A stretch of DNA of 64,000 bases from assembly GCA_947259215.1 (NCBI GenBank), contig CAMYLJ010000004.1:1-64000 (forward strand), given 5' to 3'. A program made the position numbers and the translations under genes. The notes below the pieces were generated by a model. It saw nothing but the letters and a program-made list of their open reading frames with translations, was not told the DNA's origin and made no database searches. This DNA is from an uncultured delta proteobacterium (GTDB lineage: Bacteria; Myxococcota_A; UBA9160; JAFDET01). Positions 51,537 to 63,069 of this stretch are shown one piece after another (positions within the stretch are counted from its first letter, which is position 1; each line of letters begins with the position of its first letter).

Positions 51537-52088
51537 ATGAGTCCGCCTTCGATCGATGCGCTGGTGAAGGTCTGCTCGTACTACCGCGATGCGGAGATGC
51601 GGGGGTCCAACCTGCTGTATCGCATGCTGCGCTTCGTCGACGATCCGGAGGCTCAGATGAACCTCTCGGAGCACCTGGCCGACGAGACGCGCCACGCCTG
51701 GCTCTGGACCAAGCGCATCCGCGATCTCGGCCGCACGCCGGTGCCCGTCGATGACGGCTACCAGGTGCGCATCGGCCGCAAGGCCGGCTTCCCGCGCAAC
51801 GTGATCGATCTCTTCGCGCTCACCGTGGTGGTGGAGCAGCGCGCGCTGCGCCGCTACCAGGAGCACCTGCGCCGGCCCGACGTGGACGAAGAGACGCGCG
51901 ACGTGCTGAACCAGGTGAGCAAGGACGAGGGTTGGCACCTCGACTGGATGCGGCGCAAGGGCCGCGAGTTCGCCGAGAAGGCGGGCGAGCCCGAGCGCTT
52001 CGATTCCTCCATCAAGCGCTTCCGCGACATCGACCGCGAGGTGATGGAGGAGCTCAACGAGCTCGAGAGTTCGTTCGACGCGTCCTAG
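51537..52088 (+). CDS. Ferritin-like di-iron protein
   Basis: A 183-residue four-helix-bundle protein. Each pair of helices carries an iron motif: Glu in RDAEMRG with ExxH in ADETRHAW, then Glu in VVEQRALRRY with ExxH in KDEGWHLDW. That gives the complete E-ExxH-E-ExxH set of the ferritin-like di-iron family. There is no signal peptide and no targeting segment. It may be an oxygenase, an oxidase or an iron-handling protein; sequence alone does not decide. Ribosome site CAGGGGGG. Confidence 0.8.
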   Translation: MSPPSIDALVKVCSYYRDAEMRGSNLLYRMLRFVDDPEAQMNLSEHLADETRHAWLWTKRIRDLGRTPVPVDDGYQVRIGRKAGFPRNVIDLFALTVVVEQRALRRYQEHLRRPDVDEETRDVLNQVSKDEGWHLDWMRRKGREFAEKAGEPERFDSSIKRFRDIDREVMEELNELESSFDAS

Positions 52089-52158
52089 CGACCGCCTGCT
52101 CGGTGCACTTGCCGGCGGCCTGCTGAACGCGCTCGGCGCGCTGTCCCGGCCCCGAGCG

Positions 52159-53046
52159 GTGCGCCTGGGAGGCGCCTTCGGCCGTGCCTGGGCGCGCGTG
52201 CGCGGACCGCGAACCTCCATCGCCGCCAGCAATATCGCCATCGCCTTTCCGGATCTCGAGCCACGCGCGCGGCGGCGACTGCTCGTGGACTCGTTCGAGC
52301 GCATGGGCCAGGGGCTGGCGGAGGTGGCCCTGCTGCCGCGGCTCGACGCCGACGAGGTCCGGCGCTGGGTCACGGTGGAAGGCATCGAGCACCTGGAGGA
52401 GGCGCGCAAGCATTCGCCGGGGGGCGGCGCCATCGCGCTGACCGCACACTTCGGGTCCTTCGAGTTCTTCGCCGCCGCCATGGGCCTGTGGGGAATCCCG
52501 CTGTCGATCGTGCACCGGGAGCAGCACCCGGCACTCCAGCCCCTGGTGGTGCGCTGGCGCGAGGCGGCGGGCATCGAGGTGCTCACCCGGGGCAACGCGG
52601 CGCGGGCGGTGCTGCGCGCGCTGCGCGACGGCAAGGTCGTGGCCATGCCCCTGGATCAGGACTCGGGCAAGCGCGAGGGGATCTTCGCGCCCTTCTTCGG
52701 GCGGCCGGCCAAGACCCGCGACGCGCCCGCGCGCCTGGCCATGCACACCGGGGCGCCGGTGGTGCCCGTCTTCTTCTTCCGCCAGGACGGCGGCCCGCAC
52801 CACGTCGTGCGCTTCGAGCCCGCCCTGAAGCTGGTGCCCCAGGGGGAGGGTGATGAGGCGGAGGCCGTGGCGGAGAACGTGCGACGCATGAACGCCGCCA
52901 TCGAGGCGGCCGTGCGCGAGGCTCCGGACCACTGGGCCTGGGTGCACCGGCGCTGGAAGACCCGGCCCGAAGGCACGCGCCACCCCTATCGGCCCGACCG
53001 TCCGGGCTCCCCAGAGCTCCCGAAGTCACCGAAGCGGCTGGGCTAA
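52159..53046 (+). CDS. LpxL/HtrB-type lysophospholipid (lipid A) acyltransferase
   Basis: An HtrB-family acyltransferase. The catalytic HX4E is in LTAHFGSFE, and NIAIAFPDL and PLDQDSGKREGIFAPFFG are further family motifs. From GTG 52159 it has 295 residues, but the hydrophobic lead-in expected in this family (LLGALAGGLLNALGALSRP) is encoded just upstream, in frame and open back to 52045, without any ATG, GTG or TTG. Translation may start at CTG 52096 or CTG 52120, or may depend on read-through from the ferritin-like gene ending at 52088. It acylates a membrane lipid at the inner-membrane face. Confidence 0.75.
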   Translation: MRLGGAFGRAWARVRGPRTSIAASNIAIAFPDLEPRARRRLLVDSFERMGQGLAEVALLPRLDADEVRRWVTVEGIEHLEEARKHSPGGGAIALTAHFGSFEFFAAAMGLWGIPLSIVHREQHPALQPLVVRWREAAGIEVLTRGNAARAVLRALRDGKVVAMPLDQDSGKREGIFAPFFGRPAKTRDAPARLAMHTGAPVVPVFFFRQDGGPHHVVRFEPALKLVPQGEGDEAEAVAENVRRMNAAIEAAVREAPDHWAWVHRRWKTRPEGTRHPYRPDRPGSPELPKSPKRLG

Positions 53047-53059
53047 CATCCGAACGATC

Positions 53060-54784
53060 ATGAGCTGGGTCCCCCCCGACAAGCCCGCGGTCACGCTCGA
53101 CGGCTCCGATCTGTCCCAGATGAGCAAGAACGAGCGGATCAAGCTGGAGAGCCGCGGGCTCCTCGGCCTGGGCGACCACACCTTTCGCGACGAGCTCGAC
53201 GCCTTGTCCCGGGGCGACGAGCCCACCCTCTCCGGCGACGCCAAGGAACTCTCGAAGTTCTTCGGGATCTACAAGCAGCAGATCCGCGGAGAGCGCGGGC
53301 GCAAGACCGGCGATCATGTCTTCATGGCGCGGATCAAGCTGCCGTCCGGGGGCGAGCTGTCGCCGGCCCAGTGGCTGGCCCTGGACGCCGCCGCGGAGCA
53401 GTTCGCCGACGGCAGCCTGCGGATCACCTCGCGCCAGGGGATCCAGTATCACCGGGTCTCGGGGCCGAACCTGGCTCCCCTGGTGCGGCACCTGAACCGC
53501 CACTACCGGGATCACGGCACCCTGGGCGCCTGCGGCGACGTGAACCGCAACGTGATGGGCTCGCCCATCGACGGGCTGGCTCCCGGCGGTGATCCGCGGG
53601 CCCGGGAGCTGGCCGAGAGCATCGCGGGCGAGCTGGCGCCGCGCACCGGCTCCTACTTCCAGATCTTCCTGTCCGACGACGAAGGCCGCTCGCTGCAGCG
53701 GGTGAACCCGGAAGAGCCCATCTACGGCGCCCACTACCTGCCGCGGAAGTTCAAGATCGGGCTCGCCCACCCGGACGACAACTCGGTGGACGTCCTCACC
53801 CAGGACGTCGGCCTGGTGCCGGTGGACCGGGAGGGAGAGGTGTGGGACCTCTACAGCGGCGGCGGTCTCGGGCTCACCCACAACAACCCGCACACCGCCG
53901 CCCTGCTCGGCCTGTACCTCGGCCGGGTACGGCGCGCGCAGGTGCAGGATGCCATTCGCGCCATCGTGCTGCTCCAGCGCGACCACGGCGAGCGCAAGGA
54001 CCGCAGGCAGGCGCGCTGGAAGTACACGGTCCGACGCCTCGGGCTCGGGGCCGTGAAGGAGTCGTTGAAGCAGCAGGGCATCGAGCTCGAGTCGGCCGAG
54101 CCGGTGCCGCTCCCGCCCATGCGGCTCCACCTGGGCTGGAACGAGCAGGCCGACGGGCGCAGCTGGTACGGCGTCTCCGTCGAGAACGGGCGCGTGAAGT
54201 CCGCCCTGCGCCAGGCCGTGCGCGCGGCGGTGGAAGAGCTGGGGCTGGGGGTGCGCCTGACGCCCCAGCAGGATCTGCTGCTCACGAACGTCGCCGATCG
54301 GGACGCCCTGGAGCGGATTCTCTCGGAACACGGCGTGGCGGATCCCGAGTCCGTCTCGCTCATGCGGCGCAACGCCATGGCCTGCCCGGCCCTGCCCACC
54401 TGCGGCCTGGCCATGACCGACGCCGAGAACGTGCTGCCGCGCTACATGGACGCCATCGAGGCGGCGGGGCTCGGCGACGTCGATGCGGTGATCCGGATGA
54501 CGGGCTGCCCCAACAACTGCGCGCGTCCGCCGACGGCCGAGATCGGGATCTACGGCTACGGCAAGAACGACCACGTGATCCTGGTGGGCGGTGCGCGCGA
54601 GGGCTCGCGCCTGGCCCACACCCTCTACGAACGCCTGCCCGAGGAGCAGATGGTGCCCGCGCTGGTGGGTCTCCTGCGCGCCGTCCGGGAGCGCAACACG
54701 GACGGGCTCCCGGTGGGCGAGTTCCTGCACCGCACCAATCCGGCCGTGCTGCGCGACTGGATCGGGCTCGACGAGGCGACCTAG
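53060..54784 (+). CDS. Siroheme sulfite/nitrite reductase (hemoprotein)
   Basis: A 574-residue enzyme with the duplicated ferredoxin-like half-domain and siroheme motifs. RITSRQGIQYHRV is in the first half; the siroheme/4Fe-4S cysteines are in ACPALPTCGLA (C-x5-C) and TGCPNNCARPP (C-x3-C). The start SKNERIKLESRGLLG is that of assimilatory, ferredoxin- or NADPH-linked sulfite reductases. It reduces sulfite to sulfide (or nitrite to ammonia). No flavoprotein CysJ is adjacent, so a ferredoxin donor is likely. Its stop lies one base before cofG, an unusual neighbour. Confidence 0.9.
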   Translation: MSWVPPDKPAVTLDGSDLSQMSKNERIKLESRGLLGLGDHTFRDELDALSRGDEPTLSGDAKELSKFFGIYKQQIRGERGRKTGDHVFMARIKLPSGGELSPAQWLALDAAAEQFADGSLRITSRQGIQYHRVSGPNLAPLVRHLNRHYRDHGTLGACGDVNRNVMGSPIDGLAPGGDPRARELAESIAGELAPRTGSYFQIFLSDDEGRSLQRVNPEEPIYGAHYLPRKFKIGLAHPDDNSVDVLTQDVGLVPVDREGEVWDLYSGGGLGLTHNNPHTAALLGLYLGRVRRAQVQDAIRAIVLLQRDHGERKDRRQARWKYTVRRLGLGAVKESLKQQGIELESAEPVPLPPMRLHLGWNEQADGRSWYGVSVENGRVKSALRQAVRAAVEELGLGVRLTPQQDLLLTNVADRDALERILSEHGVADPESVSLMRRNAMACPALPTCGLAMTDAENVLPRYMDAIEAAGLGDVDAVIRMTGCPNNCARPPTAEIGIYGYGKNDHVILVGGAREGSRLAHTLYERLPEEQMVPALVGLLRAVRERNTDGLPVGEFLHRTNPAVLRDWIGLDEAT

Positions 54785-54785
54785 G

Positions 54786-55985
54786 GTGTCCCTCGCGCTG
54801 GCCGACGCCGAGCGCATCGTCGCGTGCGCCGTGTCCGACGCGGCGATCGATCCGGCGGAGGCGGAGCTCCTGGCCGGGAGCCTCGGCGACGCGGCGGTCC
54901 GCGACGCCGTCCGCGCCGGCGCCCTCGAGAGCAAGCTCCGGGGCAAGGGCGACGTGGTCTCGTTCTCCCGCAACGTCTTCATCCCCCTGACCAACCTGTG
55001 CCGGGACCGCTGCGCCTACTGCACCTTCGCCAAGCTCCCCGACTCGCCCGAGGCGAAGACCTACGCCCTGGACGAGGTGGCCGAGGTCGTGCGGGGCGGC
55101 GTCGCCACCGGCTGCAGCGAGGCGCTGCTGTGTCTCGGCGACAAGCCCGAGATCGCCCATCCTCAGCACCGGGACTGGCTGCGCGAGCGCGGCTATCGCA
55201 GCACGCCGGACTACGTCGTCGAGGCGTCGCGGGTGGCGTTCGAGGGCGGGATGCTGCCGCACACGAACGCCGGGATCCTGACGTCCGACGAGATGCAGGC
55301 GCTGCGCGCCTGGAACGCCTCCCTGGGCCTGATGCTCGAGAGCACGAGCGAGCGCCTCTGCGCCCGCGGCGGCCCGCACTTCTGGGCGCCCGACAAGAAG
55401 CCGGCCGTGCGGCTGCGCATGCACGAGGAGGCGGGCGAGCTGGGGATCCCGTTCACCAGCGGGCTGCTGCTCGGGATCGGCGAGACGCCAGCCGAGCGCG
55501 TGCAGACGCTCTTCGCGATCCGCGACCTGGACGAGCGCCATGGCCACATCCAGGAGACGATCGTCCAGCCCTTCCATCCCAAGCCCGGCACCCGCATGCG
55601 GGCCGCGACGCCGCTCTCCGACGCCGAGGTGGCGGGCTGGGTGGGACTCGCCCGGCTGGTGCTGGGCCCGGCGCGCAACGTCCAGGCCCCGCCCAACCTG
55701 GCGCCCGACGTGCTGGAGACCCTCCTCCACTCGGGGCTCAACGACTGGGGCGGCGTCTCGCCCGTGACCCTCGACTTCATCAACCCCGAGGCGCCCTGGC
55801 CCACCCTGGACGAGCTGCGCCGCCGCACGGAGGCGGCCGGTCACAGGCTGGTGGAGCGCCTGCCCGTGTATCCCGACGATCTGCTCGAGCGCCCCGAGCG
55901 GTTCGCCCCCCGCGTCCGCGAGGCGGCCCTGCGCCTCGCGGGCCCCGACGGCTGGGTGCGACCCCGGCAGGAGGCGGCAGCATGA
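54786..55985 (+). CDS. cofG: FO synthase subunit CofG
   Basis: A 399-residue radical-SAM enzyme with cluster cysteines 72, 76 and 79 (CRDRCAYC). The sequences TFAKLPDSPEAKTYALDEV, LPHTNAGILT and QPFHPKPGTRM are typical of CofG. With CofH it makes the deazaflavin FO from 5-amino-6-ribitylaminouracil and tyrosine, the chromophore of coenzyme F420. GTG start one base after the reductase stop; its own stop overlaps the cofH ATG. No cofC/D/E (fbi) genes are in the window. Confidence 0.95.
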   Translation: MSLALADAERIVACAVSDAAIDPAEAELLAGSLGDAAVRDAVRAGALESKLRGKGDVVSFSRNVFIPLTNLCRDRCAYCTFAKLPDSPEAKTYALDEVAEVVRGGVATGCSEALLCLGDKPEIAHPQHRDWLRERGYRSTPDYVVEASRVAFEGGMLPHTNAGILTSDEMQALRAWNASLGLMLESTSERLCARGGPHFWAPDKKPAVRLRMHEEAGELGIPFTSGLLLGIGETPAERVQTLFAIRDLDERHGHIQETIVQPFHPKPGTRMRAATPLSDAEVAGWVGLARLVLGPARNVQAPPNLAPDVLETLLHSGLNDWGGVSPVTLDFINPEAPWPTLDELRRRTEAAGHRLVERLPVYPDDLLERPERFAPRVREAALRLAGPDGWVRPRQEAAA

Positions 55986-57211
55986 GTCTCGATCGACTGC
56001 TCGCGGACGTGGACCCGCTGGTGGCTGGCGCCCTGGACGCCGTCCTCGACGGCAAGGAGCTCTCCACCCGCGAGGCGGAGCTGCTGCTGGAGACCGACGG
56101 CGCCGACTTCCACGCGCTCGTGCGCGCGGCGGACCTGGCCCGCAGCGAGGACAAGGGCGACGACGTCACGTTCGTGGTCAACCGCAACATGAACTTCACC
56201 AACGTCTGCTACGTCGGCTGCAGCTTCTGCGGCTTCTCGCGGCACAAGGACGAGAAAGACGCCTACGATCACCCGATGGAGGTGCTGCTGGAGAAGACCC
56301 GGGACGCGGTCGCCCGCGGCGCGACGGAGGTCTGCATCCAGGGCGGCATCCATCCGGGCAAGGACCACACCCATTACCGCGAGATCCTGGAGGCGGTGAA
56401 GGGCGCCTTCCCCGACGTCCACATCCACGCATTCTCGCCCGAGGAGATCGACTTCGGGCACCGCAAGAGCGGGATGGAGCTGGCGGACTACCTGCGCTGG
56501 CTGGTGGACGCGGGGCTCGGGACCATGCCCGGAACCGCCGCCGAGATCCTGGACGACGAGGTGCGCGACGTCATCTCGCCGAACAAGCTCAAGAAGGACC
56601 GCTGGGTGGAGATCGTGACCGCTGCGCATTCGATCGGCCTGCCGTCTACCTCCACCCTGATGTACGGCCACATCGAGAGCGCGCGTCACGTGGCCGAGCA
56701 CCTGGGCTTGCTGCGCGACATCCAGAAGCGGACCGGGGGCTTCACGGAGTTCGTGCCCCTGGGCTTCATCCACGAGAAGAACGTGCTCTTCAACCACATG
56801 GGCGCGCGCCCAGGCTCGTCCATGGCCGAGGACGTGCGGTTGGTGGCGGTGGCGCGCCTCTTCCTGCGCCCCTGGATCACCAACATCCAGGTGTCGTGGG
56901 TGAAGATGGGTCCCAAGCTGGCGCAGCTGGGCCTGATGTCCGGGGCCAACGACTTCGGCGGCACCCTGATGGAGGAGTCCATCAGCCGCGAGTCCGGGGC
57001 CGACTTCGGGGAGAACCTGCCGCCCGAGGAGATCCGCCGGCTGGTGCGCGAGCTCGGCCGCACGCCGGTGGAGCGCAGCACGACCTACCGCGTGCTGCGC
57101 CGCTTCGACGACCCGGAGAAGGACCCCCCGAGCCGGGAGCCGAAGCGGGAGCCCGAGCTCTCCGGCCCCACGCGCTGGCGGCTGGCCCAGGAGCGGGCCG
57201 CGGCCTCTTGA
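55982..57211 (+). CDS. cofH: FO synthase subunit CofH
   Basis: A 409-residue radical-SAM enzyme. Cluster cysteines 76, 80 and 83 (CYVGCSFC) are followed by CIQGGIHPGKDHTHY, FSPEEIDFG, and PSTSTLMYGHIE. These mark CofH, which joins the tyrosine-derived quinone methide/radical to the ribityl-uracil. The C-terminal tail (DPEKDPPSREPKREPELSG) is charged and proline-rich. ATG overlaps the cofG stop, and the TGA overlaps the Hsp33 start, so the unit is tightly coupled. Confidence 0.95.
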   Translation: MSLDRLLADVDPLVAGALDAVLDGKELSTREAELLLETDGADFHALVRAADLARSEDKGDDVTFVVNRNMNFTNVCYVGCSFCGFSRHKDEKDAYDHPMEVLLEKTRDAVARGATEVCIQGGIHPGKDHTHYREILEAVKGAFPDVHIHAFSPEEIDFGHRKSGMELADYLRWLVDAGLGTMPGTAAEILDDEVRDVISPNKLKKDRWVEIVTAAHSIGLPSTSTLMYGHIESARHVAEHLGLLRDIQKRTGGFTEFVPLGFIHEKNVLFNHMGARPGSSMAEDVRLVAVARLFLRPWITNIQVSWVKMGPKLAQLGLMSGANDFGGTLMEESISRESGADFGENLPPEEIRRLVRELGRTPVERSTTYRVLRRFDDPEKDPPSREPKREPELSGPTRWRLAQERAAAS

Positions 57212-58089: not shown

Positions 58090-59508
58090 TCAGGGGCGTG
58101 CGCCCGTCCTCTCCTCCACGCGGCGCGAGAGCGCCTCCACCTGGTAGCGGAGCGGAGCTCGCTCCAGCATCCGCCGCTCGACCACCGCCACGGCGTTGGC
58201 CACCGCCGGATGGTCGCGATCGAAGGCGCGCCCGATCCGGGCCAGGGAGGCATCGGTGTAGCGGCGGCACAGGTACATGCCCAGCTGGCGCGGCAGCAGC
58301 ACGTCGCGCCGGCGCGAGCGGGAGGCGAGGGCCGCCGCGGTGGTCTTGAAGAAGGCGGCCACCACCTCGATCACGTCCTCGGGCGCCACGGGCCCCGGGC
58401 CCTCCGCCACGCGAGGCCGCACCTTCTTCAGGGCGGCGTCGGTCAGGTCGCGGTCGATGGGGCGCTGGAGCAGGGAGGCGGTCGCCACCAGCTGCACCAG
58501 GGCGCCCTCCAGGTCGCGGACGCTGCCGCGGATCGCGTCCACCAGCAGCTCCAGGCAGATGTCGGGCAGGCGCACCCCGCCCGCGGCCGCCTTCGCTCGC
58601 AGGATCCGGCGCCGCACCTCCGCGTCCGGCTCCTCGATCTCCGCCACCAGTCCCGCCGTCATGCGCGATCGCAGCCGCGGGTCGAAGTCCGTCAGGTTGG
58701 CGGGCGGCCGGTCCCCCGTGAAGACCACCCGGCCCCCGATGTCGAGCAGGTGCTGCACGGTGTGGAAGAGCTCGAGCTGCGTGGCCTGCTTGCCCGCGAA
58801 GAACTGCACGTCCTCGACCACGAGCAGGTCGCACTCACCCCGGTAGCGCCGCTTGAAGGCGCTCATGCCACGGCTGCGAAGCGCGCTCTGGAACTCGTTG
58901 GTGAAGGCCTCGGCCGGCGCGTAGATCGCGCGGCGCGAACCCTGCGCCTGGACCTCCGCCACCAGCGCGCGCGCCAGGTGCGTCTTGCCGAGGCCGGAGT
59001 CTGCCGCCAGGAACAACGTGTCCACGCTGCGCTGGCGTCCCTCCGCCAGGGCCAGCGAGCCCTCCCGCGCCAGGGCATTGCACGGCCCCACCACGAAGTC
59101 GTCGAAGCGGTAGGGGAGCGGCTCCTGGCGCGGCGCGGGCGAGGTCTGTGCGACCGGCCTCGGGTTTGGGGCGGGTCGCGACGCGCGCGCCGGCTCGGGC
59201 GCCGGGTGCGGCGAGGACGTCGGGGCGCCCGTGGGCCCGCCGGGCCTGGCCGTCGCCGCGGGCACCGGCTCGGCGCCGACCTCCAGCGAAACCGGCACCT
59301 CACGACCGGCTTCCTCCCCAGCCCAGTAGCTGATGCGCTCCAGCAGGCGGCCGCGGACGCGTTCCCGATGGAACACGTTGGGACAGCTCAAGCGCAGCTC
59401 GCCGTCTTCGGCCCGGGCCACCAGCGGGTGGACCCAGGTCTCCAGGGCGAGCGGCCCCGTCTCGGCCGCGAGGCGGCCGAGAACGGCGGTCCAGAGGGGG
59501 GGAATCAT
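58090..59508 (-). CDS. dnaA: Chromosomal replication initiator DnaA (divergent)
   Basis: A 472-residue DnaA. Domain I is residues 1-75, a proline-rich domain II linker spans about 80-130, and domain III is AAA+ with Walker A GLGKT (172-176), Walker B LLVVEDVQFFAGK and sensor TGDRPP. Domain IV is a helix-turn-helix. The box-reading motif, usually GRDHSTV or GRDHTTV, is DRDHPAV here, and the arginine-finger region reads RLRSRM instead of RLRSRF. The expected neighbours dnaN, recF and gyrB are absent. It is either the genome's only initiator with altered specificity or a paralogue. ATG at 59508 with a weak ribosome site. Confidence 0.85.
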   Translation of the reverse strand: MIPPLWTAVLGRLAAETGPLALETWVHPLVARAEDGELRLSCPNVFHRERVRGRLLERISYWAGEEAGREVPVSLEVGAEPVPAATARPGGPTGAPTSSPHPAPEPARASRPAPNPRPVAQTSPAPRQEPLPYRFDDFVVGPCNALAREGSLALAEGRQRSVDTLFLAADSGLGKTHLARALVAEVQAQGSRRAIYAPAEAFTNEFQSALRSRGMSAFKRRYRGECDLLVVEDVQFFAGKQATQLELFHTVQHLLDIGGRVVFTGDRPPANLTDFDPRLRSRMTAGLVAEIEEPDAEVRRRILRAKAAAGGVRLPDICLELLVDAIRGSVRDLEGALVQLVATASLLQRPIDRDLTDAALKKVRPRVAEGPGPVAPEDVIEVVAAFFKTTAAALASRSRRRDVLLPRQLGMYLCRRYTDASLARIGRAFDRDHPAVANAVAVVERRMLERAPLRYQVEALSRRVEERTGARP

Positions 59509-59894
59509 CTCTGGCTCGACGTCCTGATTCCTTGTTGTAGAGCGATTATTGCGGGTTTGCCGGGGATTCCAGGGAACCGAACCTCTCACCCCCCCAGAAT
59601 CCAGGCGCATTCCAGCACAGCGCCGGGATCCCCGCAAAGCCGATTCCCAAGCCCGATCGCCCCGGCGCGATCGACTCGGCCGTCATCGCAATACCATCTC
59701 AGCGTCGAGGAACCGTCGTTTGGAAGTCCGAAGCACGCGCGTTTCCGGCGGCTTCGGCGGTTCTTGTTGAGACGGGTTCGCGGCGCACGGGCTGCCCGGC
59801 CGCAGCCAGCCAGCGCTCTCCGCCAATCGCGAATCGTCTTTTTTCTGGAATTTTCGGATGATTTCTACGAAATCCGGCGATTCTCAGGAGAGGC
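59509..59894. other. 386-base gene-free region upstream of dnaA
   Basis: Between dnaA and the LON-domain gene (both minus strand). No gene is evident. It contains a small hairpin, GATTTC-TAC-GAAATC (59860-59874), beside the AT-rich segment TCTTTTTTCTGGAATTTTCG (59837-59856), and an AATAAT-like stretch on the minus strand near 59550 that may serve the dnaA promoter. I looked for TTATNCACA-type DnaA boxes on both strands and found none, so I do not call this an origin. Confidence 0.5.
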
Positions 59895-60557
59895 TCAGTG
59901 GACGCTCCGGGGGGGCGTGGGAGCCCCGCCGGAGCGCTCCGCCTGCCGGAACTCGAGCAGGTCCACGAGCGCCTGGGAGCGGCCCAGCACGCCTTCGGCC
60001 TCGAGCAGCCCCTGCTTCTCCGGGGGCGGGAGCTCGATCAGCTGGCACACGGTGTTGACTACGGCGGCGCGGTCGTTGCCGCAGAACAGGCGTTCCTGCA
60101 GCTGCTGGCGCGCTCCCGGGACCTGCTCCTCCAGCAGCTGCGCCAGCAGGTCGAGACATCGGTCCAGCAGCCCGCTCAGGCGCTCCGTCTCATTGCCGGC
60201 GAGCGGATCATCCAGGTACTCCACCCGGGCGCTGCGGTAGAGGCGTGCCTCGGGCCGGCTCGGCTCGTCGAGGATGCGGAAGCGTCGCGCCCCCAGCAGA
60301 ACGATGTTGTAGCGACCGTCGGGAAGCCGCTCGGACTGCACGATGCGCCCCTCGCAGCCCACGTCGAAGATCGGCGGGTCCCCTGCCGTCGAGGAGCTTT
60401 GCTCGGGGCGAATCGTGACCATCCCGATGCGCTCGTCCGACGCCAGCGCGTCCAGGGCCATCTGGCGATAGCGCGTCTCGAAGATGTGCAGCGGGCAGCG
60501 TACCCTCGGGAACAGCACCACCTGCTGGAGCGGAAAGATCGGGATAAGGTCGCTCAC
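59895..60557 (-). CDS. LON substrate-binding-domain protein
   Basis: A 220-residue protein consisting of the N-terminal substrate-binding domain of Lon without its ATPase or protease. IPIFPLQQVVLFPRVRCPLHIFE is the family signature, and GCEGRIVQSERLPDGRYNIVLLG continues it. A helical tail follows (LEEQVPGARQQLQERL). GTG at 60557 is preferred because the family begins directly with the IFPL strand. A -10-like TATGTT stands seven bases before it on the minus strand. It may act as an adaptor or a peptide-binding protein; stand-alone members have no settled function. Confidence 0.8.
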   Translation of the reverse strand: MSDLIPIFPLQQVVLFPRVRCPLHIFETRYRQMALDALASDERIGMVTIRPEQSSSTAGDPPIFDVGCEGRIVQSERLPDGRYNIVLLGARRFRILDEPSRPEARLYRSARVEYLDDPLAGNETERLSGLLDRCLDLLAQLLEEQVPGARQQLQERLFCGNDRAAVVNTVCQLIELPPPEKQGLLEAEGVLGRSQALVDLLEFRQAERSGGAPTPPRSVH

Positions 60558-60676
60558 GGGAAGAACATAGATGATTCTCGGGAGGCGTCCGGTGCGACCG
60601 GGTTGCCGCCTGGGGTCCACGGAGCGCGATTCGCCCGAGGGAAGGCGCCGGGGTTCGAGCGTTCCAGCGGGTCAGC

Positions 60677-60701: not shown

Positions 60702-61178
60702 GTGAATCGCCGGACGCGGCGTGAGCTGGTCGAAGGGCTGAATCGCGACGGGGCCGTGCTGGCCGCGGAGTTCGGCCTGCGCTTCCGTGCGATCGAGGCG
60801 GATCGCGCCAACGCCGTCAGTCGCTACGGGATCTGCTACTCGGACGGCACCATCCGGATCCGCCTGCGGCACGCGACCACCGGACGCCCGCTCAAGTACT
60901 CGAGCCTCGTCAATACCCTCTGCCACGAGCTGGCGCACTTGAAGCACTTCGACCATGGACCGCGCTTCAAGGCATTCTACCTGCGGATCCTGGCGGTGGC
61001 GCGCAGCCGCGGGATCTACCGGCCCGCCCGCCGCCCGTCGGCCCCAGTCGTTCGGAGCCCCGAAGCGACGCGGGCGCCCGAGCCGGCGCCGCCCAGGAGG
61101 CGACCGCGAGACACACCGCCGAAGCCGCCGGTCCCCACGGGTCCGATCCAGCTCGATCTCTTCGGCCTGGCTCGCTAG
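60702..61178 (+). CDS. SprT-like zinc metalloprotease with C-terminal clamp motif
   Basis: A 158-residue protein. Residues 1-105 are a metallopeptidase core of the SprT/WLM type: HELAH (His75, Glu76, His79) plus His85 in HFDHGPRF, and the flanking LVNTLCHELAHLKHF and FKAFYLRIL helices. Residues about 110-145 are a Pro/Arg-rich, probably disordered linker. The last residues, PIQLDLFGLAR, contain QLDLF (150-154), matching the QL(S/D)LF consensus by which DNA-metabolism proteins bind the beta sliding clamp. The layout parallels eukaryotic SPRTN (SprT domain, linker, PIP box), which degrades DNA-protein crosslinks. GTG start behind GGGGTGAGG. It could alternatively be a housekeeping YgjP-like protein with a chance motif. 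Confidence 0.8.
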   Translation: MNRRTRRELVEGLNRDGAVLAAEFGLRFRAIEADRANAVSRYGICYSDGTIRIRLRHATTGRPLKYSSLVNTLCHELAHLKHFDHGPRFKAFYLRILAVARSRGIYRPARRPSAPVVRSPEATRAPEPAPPRRRPRDTPPKPPVPTGPIQLDLFGLAR

Positions 61179-61381
61179 GAGGACACCTGCTGGGCGTCGT
61201 AGTCTTCCAGGGTGTTGGGACCCTCGACCACCTGGATCTTGATCTCGTCACAGGCGATGGCCTTGTCCAGGATCTCCCGCACAGCACCTTCCACCGTGAT
61301 CTCGTCGTACTCAGCCAGAGCGTCCTCGAGGGCGCCCTCCGTGATCGTGAACTCGACCGTCGCCTTGATTCTGGTGCTCAT
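61175..61381 (-). CDS. 68-aa acidic hypothetical protein
   Basis: A short soluble protein: strand MSTRIKATVEFTIT, an acidic helix (EGALEDALAEYDEITVEGAVREILDKA), then IKIQVVEG. It looks like a small alpha/beta domain without cysteines or membrane segments. Its stop overlaps the SprT-like gene's stop region by four bases on the opposite strand. Upstream on its own strand is TTTTCTTTTATTTTCGG, AT-rich for this genome and a fair promoter region. Function unknown. Confidence 0.6.
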   Translation of the reverse strand: MSTRIKATVEFTITEGALEDALAEYDEITVEGAVREILDKAIACDEIKIQVVEGPNTLEDYDAQQVSS

Positions 61382-62561: not shown

Positions 62562-62637
62562 CGGCCGTCCTCGGGGTGATCGGGGAGTGCGCCGCGGCGG
62601 CTTCGGTGTAAGCTCCAGCCTCCGTCGGAGGAGGCGC

Positions 62638-63069
62638 GTGCCGAACATCCGCTGGCTGCTGGCGCTGATCACCGTCGTTCACCGCTTCGTGTATCGGGCG
62701 AGCGGCGGGCGGATCGGCCACCACCTGGGCTCCCGCAAGACCCTGCTGCTCGAGACCGTCGGGCGCAAGAGCGGCAAGGAGCGCGTGTTGCCGCTGCTCT
62801 ACGTGGAAGACGAGGCCGGCCTGGTCGTGGTCGCATCGAACGCCGGCGACGACCGGACACCCGCGTGGTGGCTGAACCTGAAGGCCCGGCCCGAGGCATG
62901 GGTGCAGGTGGGGACGCGGCGGTACGCCGTGCGGGCGCGGGAAGCCGTCGACGGCGAGCGGGCGCAATTGTGGTCGAAGCTCGTGGCGTCGTACGCTCCC
63001 TACGCGGAGTACGAGCGCCGCACTTTCCGCCCGATTCCGATCGTGGTGCTGGAGCCGGCAGCCGACTAG
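62638..63069 (+). CDS. Ddn-type deazaflavin (F420)-dependent nitroreductase family protein
   Basis: A 143-residue split-beta-barrel protein. VGRKSGKERVLPLLYVED, ASNAGDDRTPAWWLNL and YAEYERRTFRPIPIVVL are the Ddn (deazaflavin-dependent nitroreductase) family signature. Members bind F420H2 and reduce quinones or nitro compounds, some at the membrane. The N-terminal helix (WLLALITVVHRFVYRAS) is amphipathic and may touch the membrane. GTG start behind GGAGGAGGCGC. The presence of cofG and cofH in the window supports a real F420 link. Confidence 0.85.
   Translation: MPNIRWLLALITVVHRFVYRASGGRIGHHLGSRKTLLLETVGRKSGKERVLPLLYVEDEAGLVVVASNAGDDRTPAWWLNLKARPEAWVQVGTRRYAVRAREAVDGERAQLWSKLVASYAPYAEYERRTFRPIPIVVLEPAAD

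Follow-up and report, generated by a model that had tools for sequence, protein, structure and literature searches.

A 158-residue protein that combines a Wss1-like metalloprotease core with a conserved, predicted beta-clamp-binding motif is encoded in the 64,000-nucleotide stretch of DNA analyzed here (the window), which represents contig C4 of a 5.7-Mb genome assembly of 96% completeness. Taken together, the sequence comparisons and the structure model suggest that it is probably a clamp-tethered protease with a Wss1 fold that clears DNA-bound proteins. The three elements highlighted in the earlier note, a HELAH core, a Pro/Arg-rich linker and a terminal QLDLF (residues 150-154), are all present in the open reading frame at 60702-61178 on the plus strand. 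The gene, its parts and its neighbors are:

60702..61178, plus strand: whole protease gene, encoding a WLM-type minigluzincin metalloprotease with a C-terminal predicted clamp-binding motif (158 aa, GTG start)
60702..61025, plus strand: folded protease core, residues 1-108 (pLDDT 94-99; best matches among solved structures to Wss1)
60924..60956, plus strand: active site HELAHLKHFDH, residues 75-85, with HExxH and the third histidine H85
61026..61148, plus strand: Pro/Arg-rich linker, residues 109-149, not conserved in sequence and variable in length across homologues
61149..61163, plus strand: QLDLF, residues 150-154, predicted beta-clamp-binding motif
59895..60620, minus strand: LON substrate-binding-domain protein without a protease part, divergent neighbor with conserved synteny in the class
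58090..59637, minus strand: dnaA, encoding the sole PF00308 protein of the genome, conserved neighbor in the class
61175..61381, minus strand: convergent small ORF of 68 aa with no assigned family, adjoining the protease gene in nearly all Myxococcota loci

The GTG start of the protease reading frame is preceded by GGTGAGGTG. HELAH occupies residues 75-79 of the 158, the linker of 41 amino acids contains 14 prolines and has a net charge of +6, and QLDLF is followed by GLAR, which closes the protein at residue 158. No further Pfam domains were found in the protein beyond the protease-family matches.

Among these families, the protein passes the cut-offs for WLM (33.9 bits, cut-off 26) and YgjP-like (32.3 bits, cut-off 26), with RYGIC in place of the YgjP motif RWGSC. 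SprT-like, the family to which the protease had originally been attributed, ranks third and stays below its threshold (20.2 versus 25.6 bits), and the attribution had to be given up. WLM was matched by all 70 aligned homologues (E<=0.01), and a sequence search with the family profile found the S. pombe WLM structure 5jig (Wss1-type) with an E-value of 4e-5. In an AlphaFold2 model built on the 70-sequence alignment, the core reached pLDDT values of 94-99, and the tail was modeled as coil with values of 60-78. This low-confidence coil and the widely varying linker length agree with the earlier proposal of a disordered tail. When the model was compared with the PDB using Foldseek, the top five matches were Wss1 structures from S. 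cerevisiae and S. pombe (E 5e-5 to 2e-3), followed by minigluzincins and then by SPRTN (6mdw) in eighth place (probability 0.94). The core therefore resembles Wss1, a crosslink protease of yeast, more closely than it resembles SPRTN.

The zinc ligands and the catalytic glutamate (H75, E76, H79 and H85) are invariant in the 70 sequences, and C45 and C74 are the only invariant cysteines among the aligned homologues. Judging from the alignment, the zinc site is intact, and proteolytic activity of the protein is highly probable. The motif could also serve to bind the clamp in a protein whose core is mainly non-proteolytic or acts on another class of protein, for example in an adaptor or in a peptidase of damaged replisome subunits. 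The YgjP-like score of the core is compatible with such a role, and to our knowledge no protease function has been settled for the related bacterial YgjP-type proteins. However, the complete conservation of the zinc ligands and the catalytic residue, and the fact that the closest folds are those of active Wss1, make this alternative unlikely.

The beta-clamp motif has been defined as Q-aliphatic-x-[L/M]-[F/L], plus a six-residue form, and QLDLF is a consensus peptide (PMC11139829), in agreement with the earlier identification of QL(S/D)LF as a clamp motif. In the same genome, QLxLF is also found near the C-termini of MutS (QLGLF), DinB (QLGLF) and a second Y-family polymerase (DinB; QLELF), and QLDLF occurs internally in an ImuB-like protein. 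The host DnaN (L157 1498-2619, minus strand) can be aligned with solved clamps from end to end and contains TDGHRL, P-Y-R, N-R-Y and VMPMRL, which we take to be the segments forming the pocket in the E. coli clamp. It is very likely that the QLDLF tail binds the DnaN clamp of the host.

PurF of the same genome carries QLSLF nine residues from its C-terminus (L169, G000:C9:34194-34208, minus strand), so the QLxLF word alone is no proof of clamp binding. PurF is likely the one decoy among the QLxLF proteins of the genome; its QLSLF may reflect chance or an unexpected clamp client.

A radical SAM protein of the PA0069 family (spore-photoproduct-lyase-like; L156/L171/L261, G000:C10:144869-145894, minus strand) ends in QLALF. 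Among its homologues in the class, several have QLSLF, QLELF or QLGLF as their last residues, or six-residue words such as QLDLDL, QLSLEL and QLELGL. As these endings resemble the two known forms of the clamp motif, the protein is a second candidate for clamp tethering.

Conservation of the protease tail was assessed in a union set of 87 different full-length proteins, all of them homologues found in Myxococcota or Acidobacteriota, with two Acidobacteriota proteins common to both contributing sets. An exact QLxLF near the C-terminus was present in 74 of the 87 proteins and a close variant in 9, so that the motif is kept while the linker drifts in sequence and length; orthologues without it, which would have spoken against the proposal in the earlier note, number only 4. 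In the first set (72 full-length proteins), 66 had the exact motif, mostly 0-5 residues from the end. The remaining tails carried the variants QLDLL, QLRLL, QRDLF and QGSLF, and two proteins were motif-free. Among 17 Acidobacteriota proteins, QLxLF was found in 9, QxxLF variants in 6 and no motif in 2, and the motifs were mostly located on short linkers of about 8-14 amino acids. A frameshift as the reason for the missing motif in L050, L051, L221 and L236 was rejected, since no frame contains the motif, and loss was accepted.

In shuffled homologue tails, QLxLF arose in 0.044%. The 5.7-Mb genome contains 32 QLxLF-coding words (all frames, both strands), and a reversed-pattern control also gives 32, from which simple arithmetic yields a chance of about 1e-4 for one in a 50-residue tail. 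Presence in a single tail is thus unlikely by chance but not decisive; what is decisive is conservation. Column entropy ranged from 0 to 0.26 bits at the Q, L, L and F positions and rose to 2.74 bits at x and to an average of 2.8 bits in the linker, and the conserved letters together with the free third position fit the clamp consensus exactly.

The conserved word might instead be another docking or degradation signal, or a consequence of some DNA-level element located where the gene ends, and the similar ending of PurF could be cited in favor. Yet the 66 genes with the exact motif encode it by 51 different nucleotide sequences, which shows that selection acts on the peptide and led us to reject a DNA-level element. 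The exact fit to the clamp consensus, and the recurrence of the same words in MutS and the Y-family polymerases of this genome, also speak against a signal unrelated to the clamp, and we regard this explanation as very improbable.

The possibility that the motif is a general trait of SprT or YgjP proteins was considered and rejected. No clamp motif was found in 28 proteins of the SprT family (PF10263) from this phylum that were read to their C-termini, or in the distant YgjP-type homologues that were recovered. The tag therefore belongs to this compact family and not to the superfamily.

Of 91 genomes from the host's Myxococcota class, 71 contain the protease gene; it was also found in a single genome from a different class of this phylum and in 18 of 396 Acidobacteriota. 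Its absence from about one fifth of the class is partly due to incomplete assemblies, and also suggests that the gene is probably not essential. Phage or plasmid origin was rejected, as there was no phage match and one weak plasmid match.

In nearly all class members, the gene order is cofG-cofH-(hsp33)-dnaA(-)-LON-domain(-)-protease(+)-small ORF(-). In the window, the sole dnaA lies apart from dnaN and gyrB (contig C22) and follows the stand-alone LON-domain gene (58090-60620, minus strand), a pairing that is kept in the class. The 68-aa ORF (61175-61381, minus strand) shares a few bases with the protease gene at its stop codon and is conserved, at 50-75% identity, in almost every Myxococcota locus. 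The F420 genes cofG and cofH (the former assigned by order and sequence only), a protein of the F420-dependent quinone reductase type and a nitrite/sulfite reductase are also located near the protease gene (51537-57211 and 62587-63069).

The location beside the only dnaA of the genome leaves room for a role in the control of replication initiation. The substrates of a clamp-tethered protease might then be regulatory clients, above all DnaA (or a translesion polymerase), that are destroyed in a replication-coupled manner. The protease gene adjoins dnaA with just the LON-domain gene in between, in an order kept across the class. In addition, PF00308, which would also be matched by Hda, the usual clamp-tethered inactivator of DnaA, was found once in the 96% complete genome, so that Hda seems to be absent. 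On the other hand, the protease gene is divergent from dnaA and not co-transcribed with it, and Acidobacteriota homologues with the same motif are found in a heme gene context. In the acidobacterium Mor1, for example, hemB and a gene for a hemL-like aminotransferase flank the protease gene (L149 4811-7670), which indicates that the dnaA neighborhood is not general. Moreover, proteases of the Wss1 fold have no substrate pocket and are promiscuous (PMC7782752), which suits crosslinks better than a single target. We therefore consider regulatory clients unlikely as the main substrates. Still less likely is the stronger version, in which a clamp-dependent proteolytic switch would replace RIDA and control DnaA in Hda-less genomes, while the clearance of crosslinks would be a secondary function.

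Linkage to replication or repair genes, which the earlier note had proposed to look for, is limited to the adjacent dnaA in Myxococcota; a search of the neighborhoods returned no repair genes and no repair or replication operon, the neighbors being dnaA and the LON-domain gene in Myxococcota and heme genes in Acidobacteriota. A search for an SOS-like box upstream of the protease gene found none, and no palindrome was enriched. Enriched upstream words were rejected as an SOS/LexA box, because they most likely belong to the first codons of the LON-domain gene, which is divergently oriented.

Clearance of DNA-bound proteins by a clamp-tethered protease remains the reading that we favor. In this mechanism, the disordered, basic and Pro-rich tail would tether the Wss1 (WLM)-fold protease to the hydrophobic pocket of DnaN through the C-terminal QLDLF, so that the protease would travel with clamps at the replication fork or behind it. 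There its substrates would be proteins that obstruct the DNA, mainly in DNA-protein crosslinks or because they are bound very tightly, and the peptide stub remaining after cleavage could be passed by clamp-bound translesion polymerases. Outside the motif, the tails drift across homologues and are mostly positively charged. Wss1 and SPRTN are DNA-dependent, promiscuous and sequence-indifferent crosslink proteases (PMC7782752), and for a core of this kind a clamp tether would be a natural means of targeting. DNA-protein crosslinks are the best inference for the substrates, and a reasonably probable one. Some observations count against the proposed mechanism, namely the 4 motif-free proteins among the 87 homologues, the absence of the gene from part of the class, the QLSLF of PurF, the lack of an SOS-like box in the upstream search and the neighbors that are not repair genes, as well as the report that the PIP box of SPRTN is dispensable for its recruitment to forks (PMC7782752).

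Excision repair and recombination are the usual explanation for the clearance of DNA-protein crosslinks in bacteria (PMC7782752; Nakano 2007 via PMC12593628), and the usual accounts contain no dedicated fork-bound protease for crosslinks. In a search of the open-access literature, a clamp motif was not described for any bacterial protease, in keeping with the earlier note, which knew of none recruited in this way, and the clamp interactome is still incomplete according to a 2026 study (PMC13254535). A conserved clamp motif on a Wss1-type protease spans two phyla. If the proposed mechanism is true, the principle of directing a promiscuous DNA protease by means of the sliding clamp also evolved in bacteria, with their own motif replacing the PIP box. 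With 158 residues, the protein would be a structurally simple system that is open to a clear test at the peptide level.

Canonical beta-clamp clients (DinB, MutS, ImuB, Pol III alpha) have the same QLxLF in tails or loops, but no protease is named among them in the main text of a 2024 clamp review (PMC11139829). The bacterial SprT and YgjP proteins belong to the same superfamily of small HExxH proteases, but differ from the window protein by the absence of the clamp motif (in the 28 SprT-like and the distant YgjP-type proteins) and, for YgjP, by the RWGSC motif. The similarity to Wss1 comprises the core fold with the top PDB matches, the HExxH motif with a third histidine 10 residues after the first, and the WLM score above the cut-off. 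Wss1 has Cdc48- and SUMO-binding motifs, with no sliding-clamp motif named alongside them, and a cysteine switch has been described for it (PMC4559962). The bacterial protein, by comparison, is a minimal core with the clamp motif as the only visible partner motif. With SPRTN (Spartan, DVC1), it shares a metalloprotease core, to which the fold match is weaker (6mdw), and a disordered basic tail with a clamp motif, but it stays below the SprT Pfam cut-off and has neither the ubiquitin-binding (UBZ) zinc finger nor the Cys-rich zinc-binding subdomain. The earlier designation as a bacterial SPRTN thus does not hold for the family, because the core is Wss1/WLM-like and the protein is not a SPRTN ortholog. 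It does hold as an analogy between crosslink-type proteases with a predicted clamp tether, in which the DnaN-type QLxLF takes the place of the PCNA-binding PIP box, and bacteria may in this sense have their own clamp-guided counterpart of human SPRTN.
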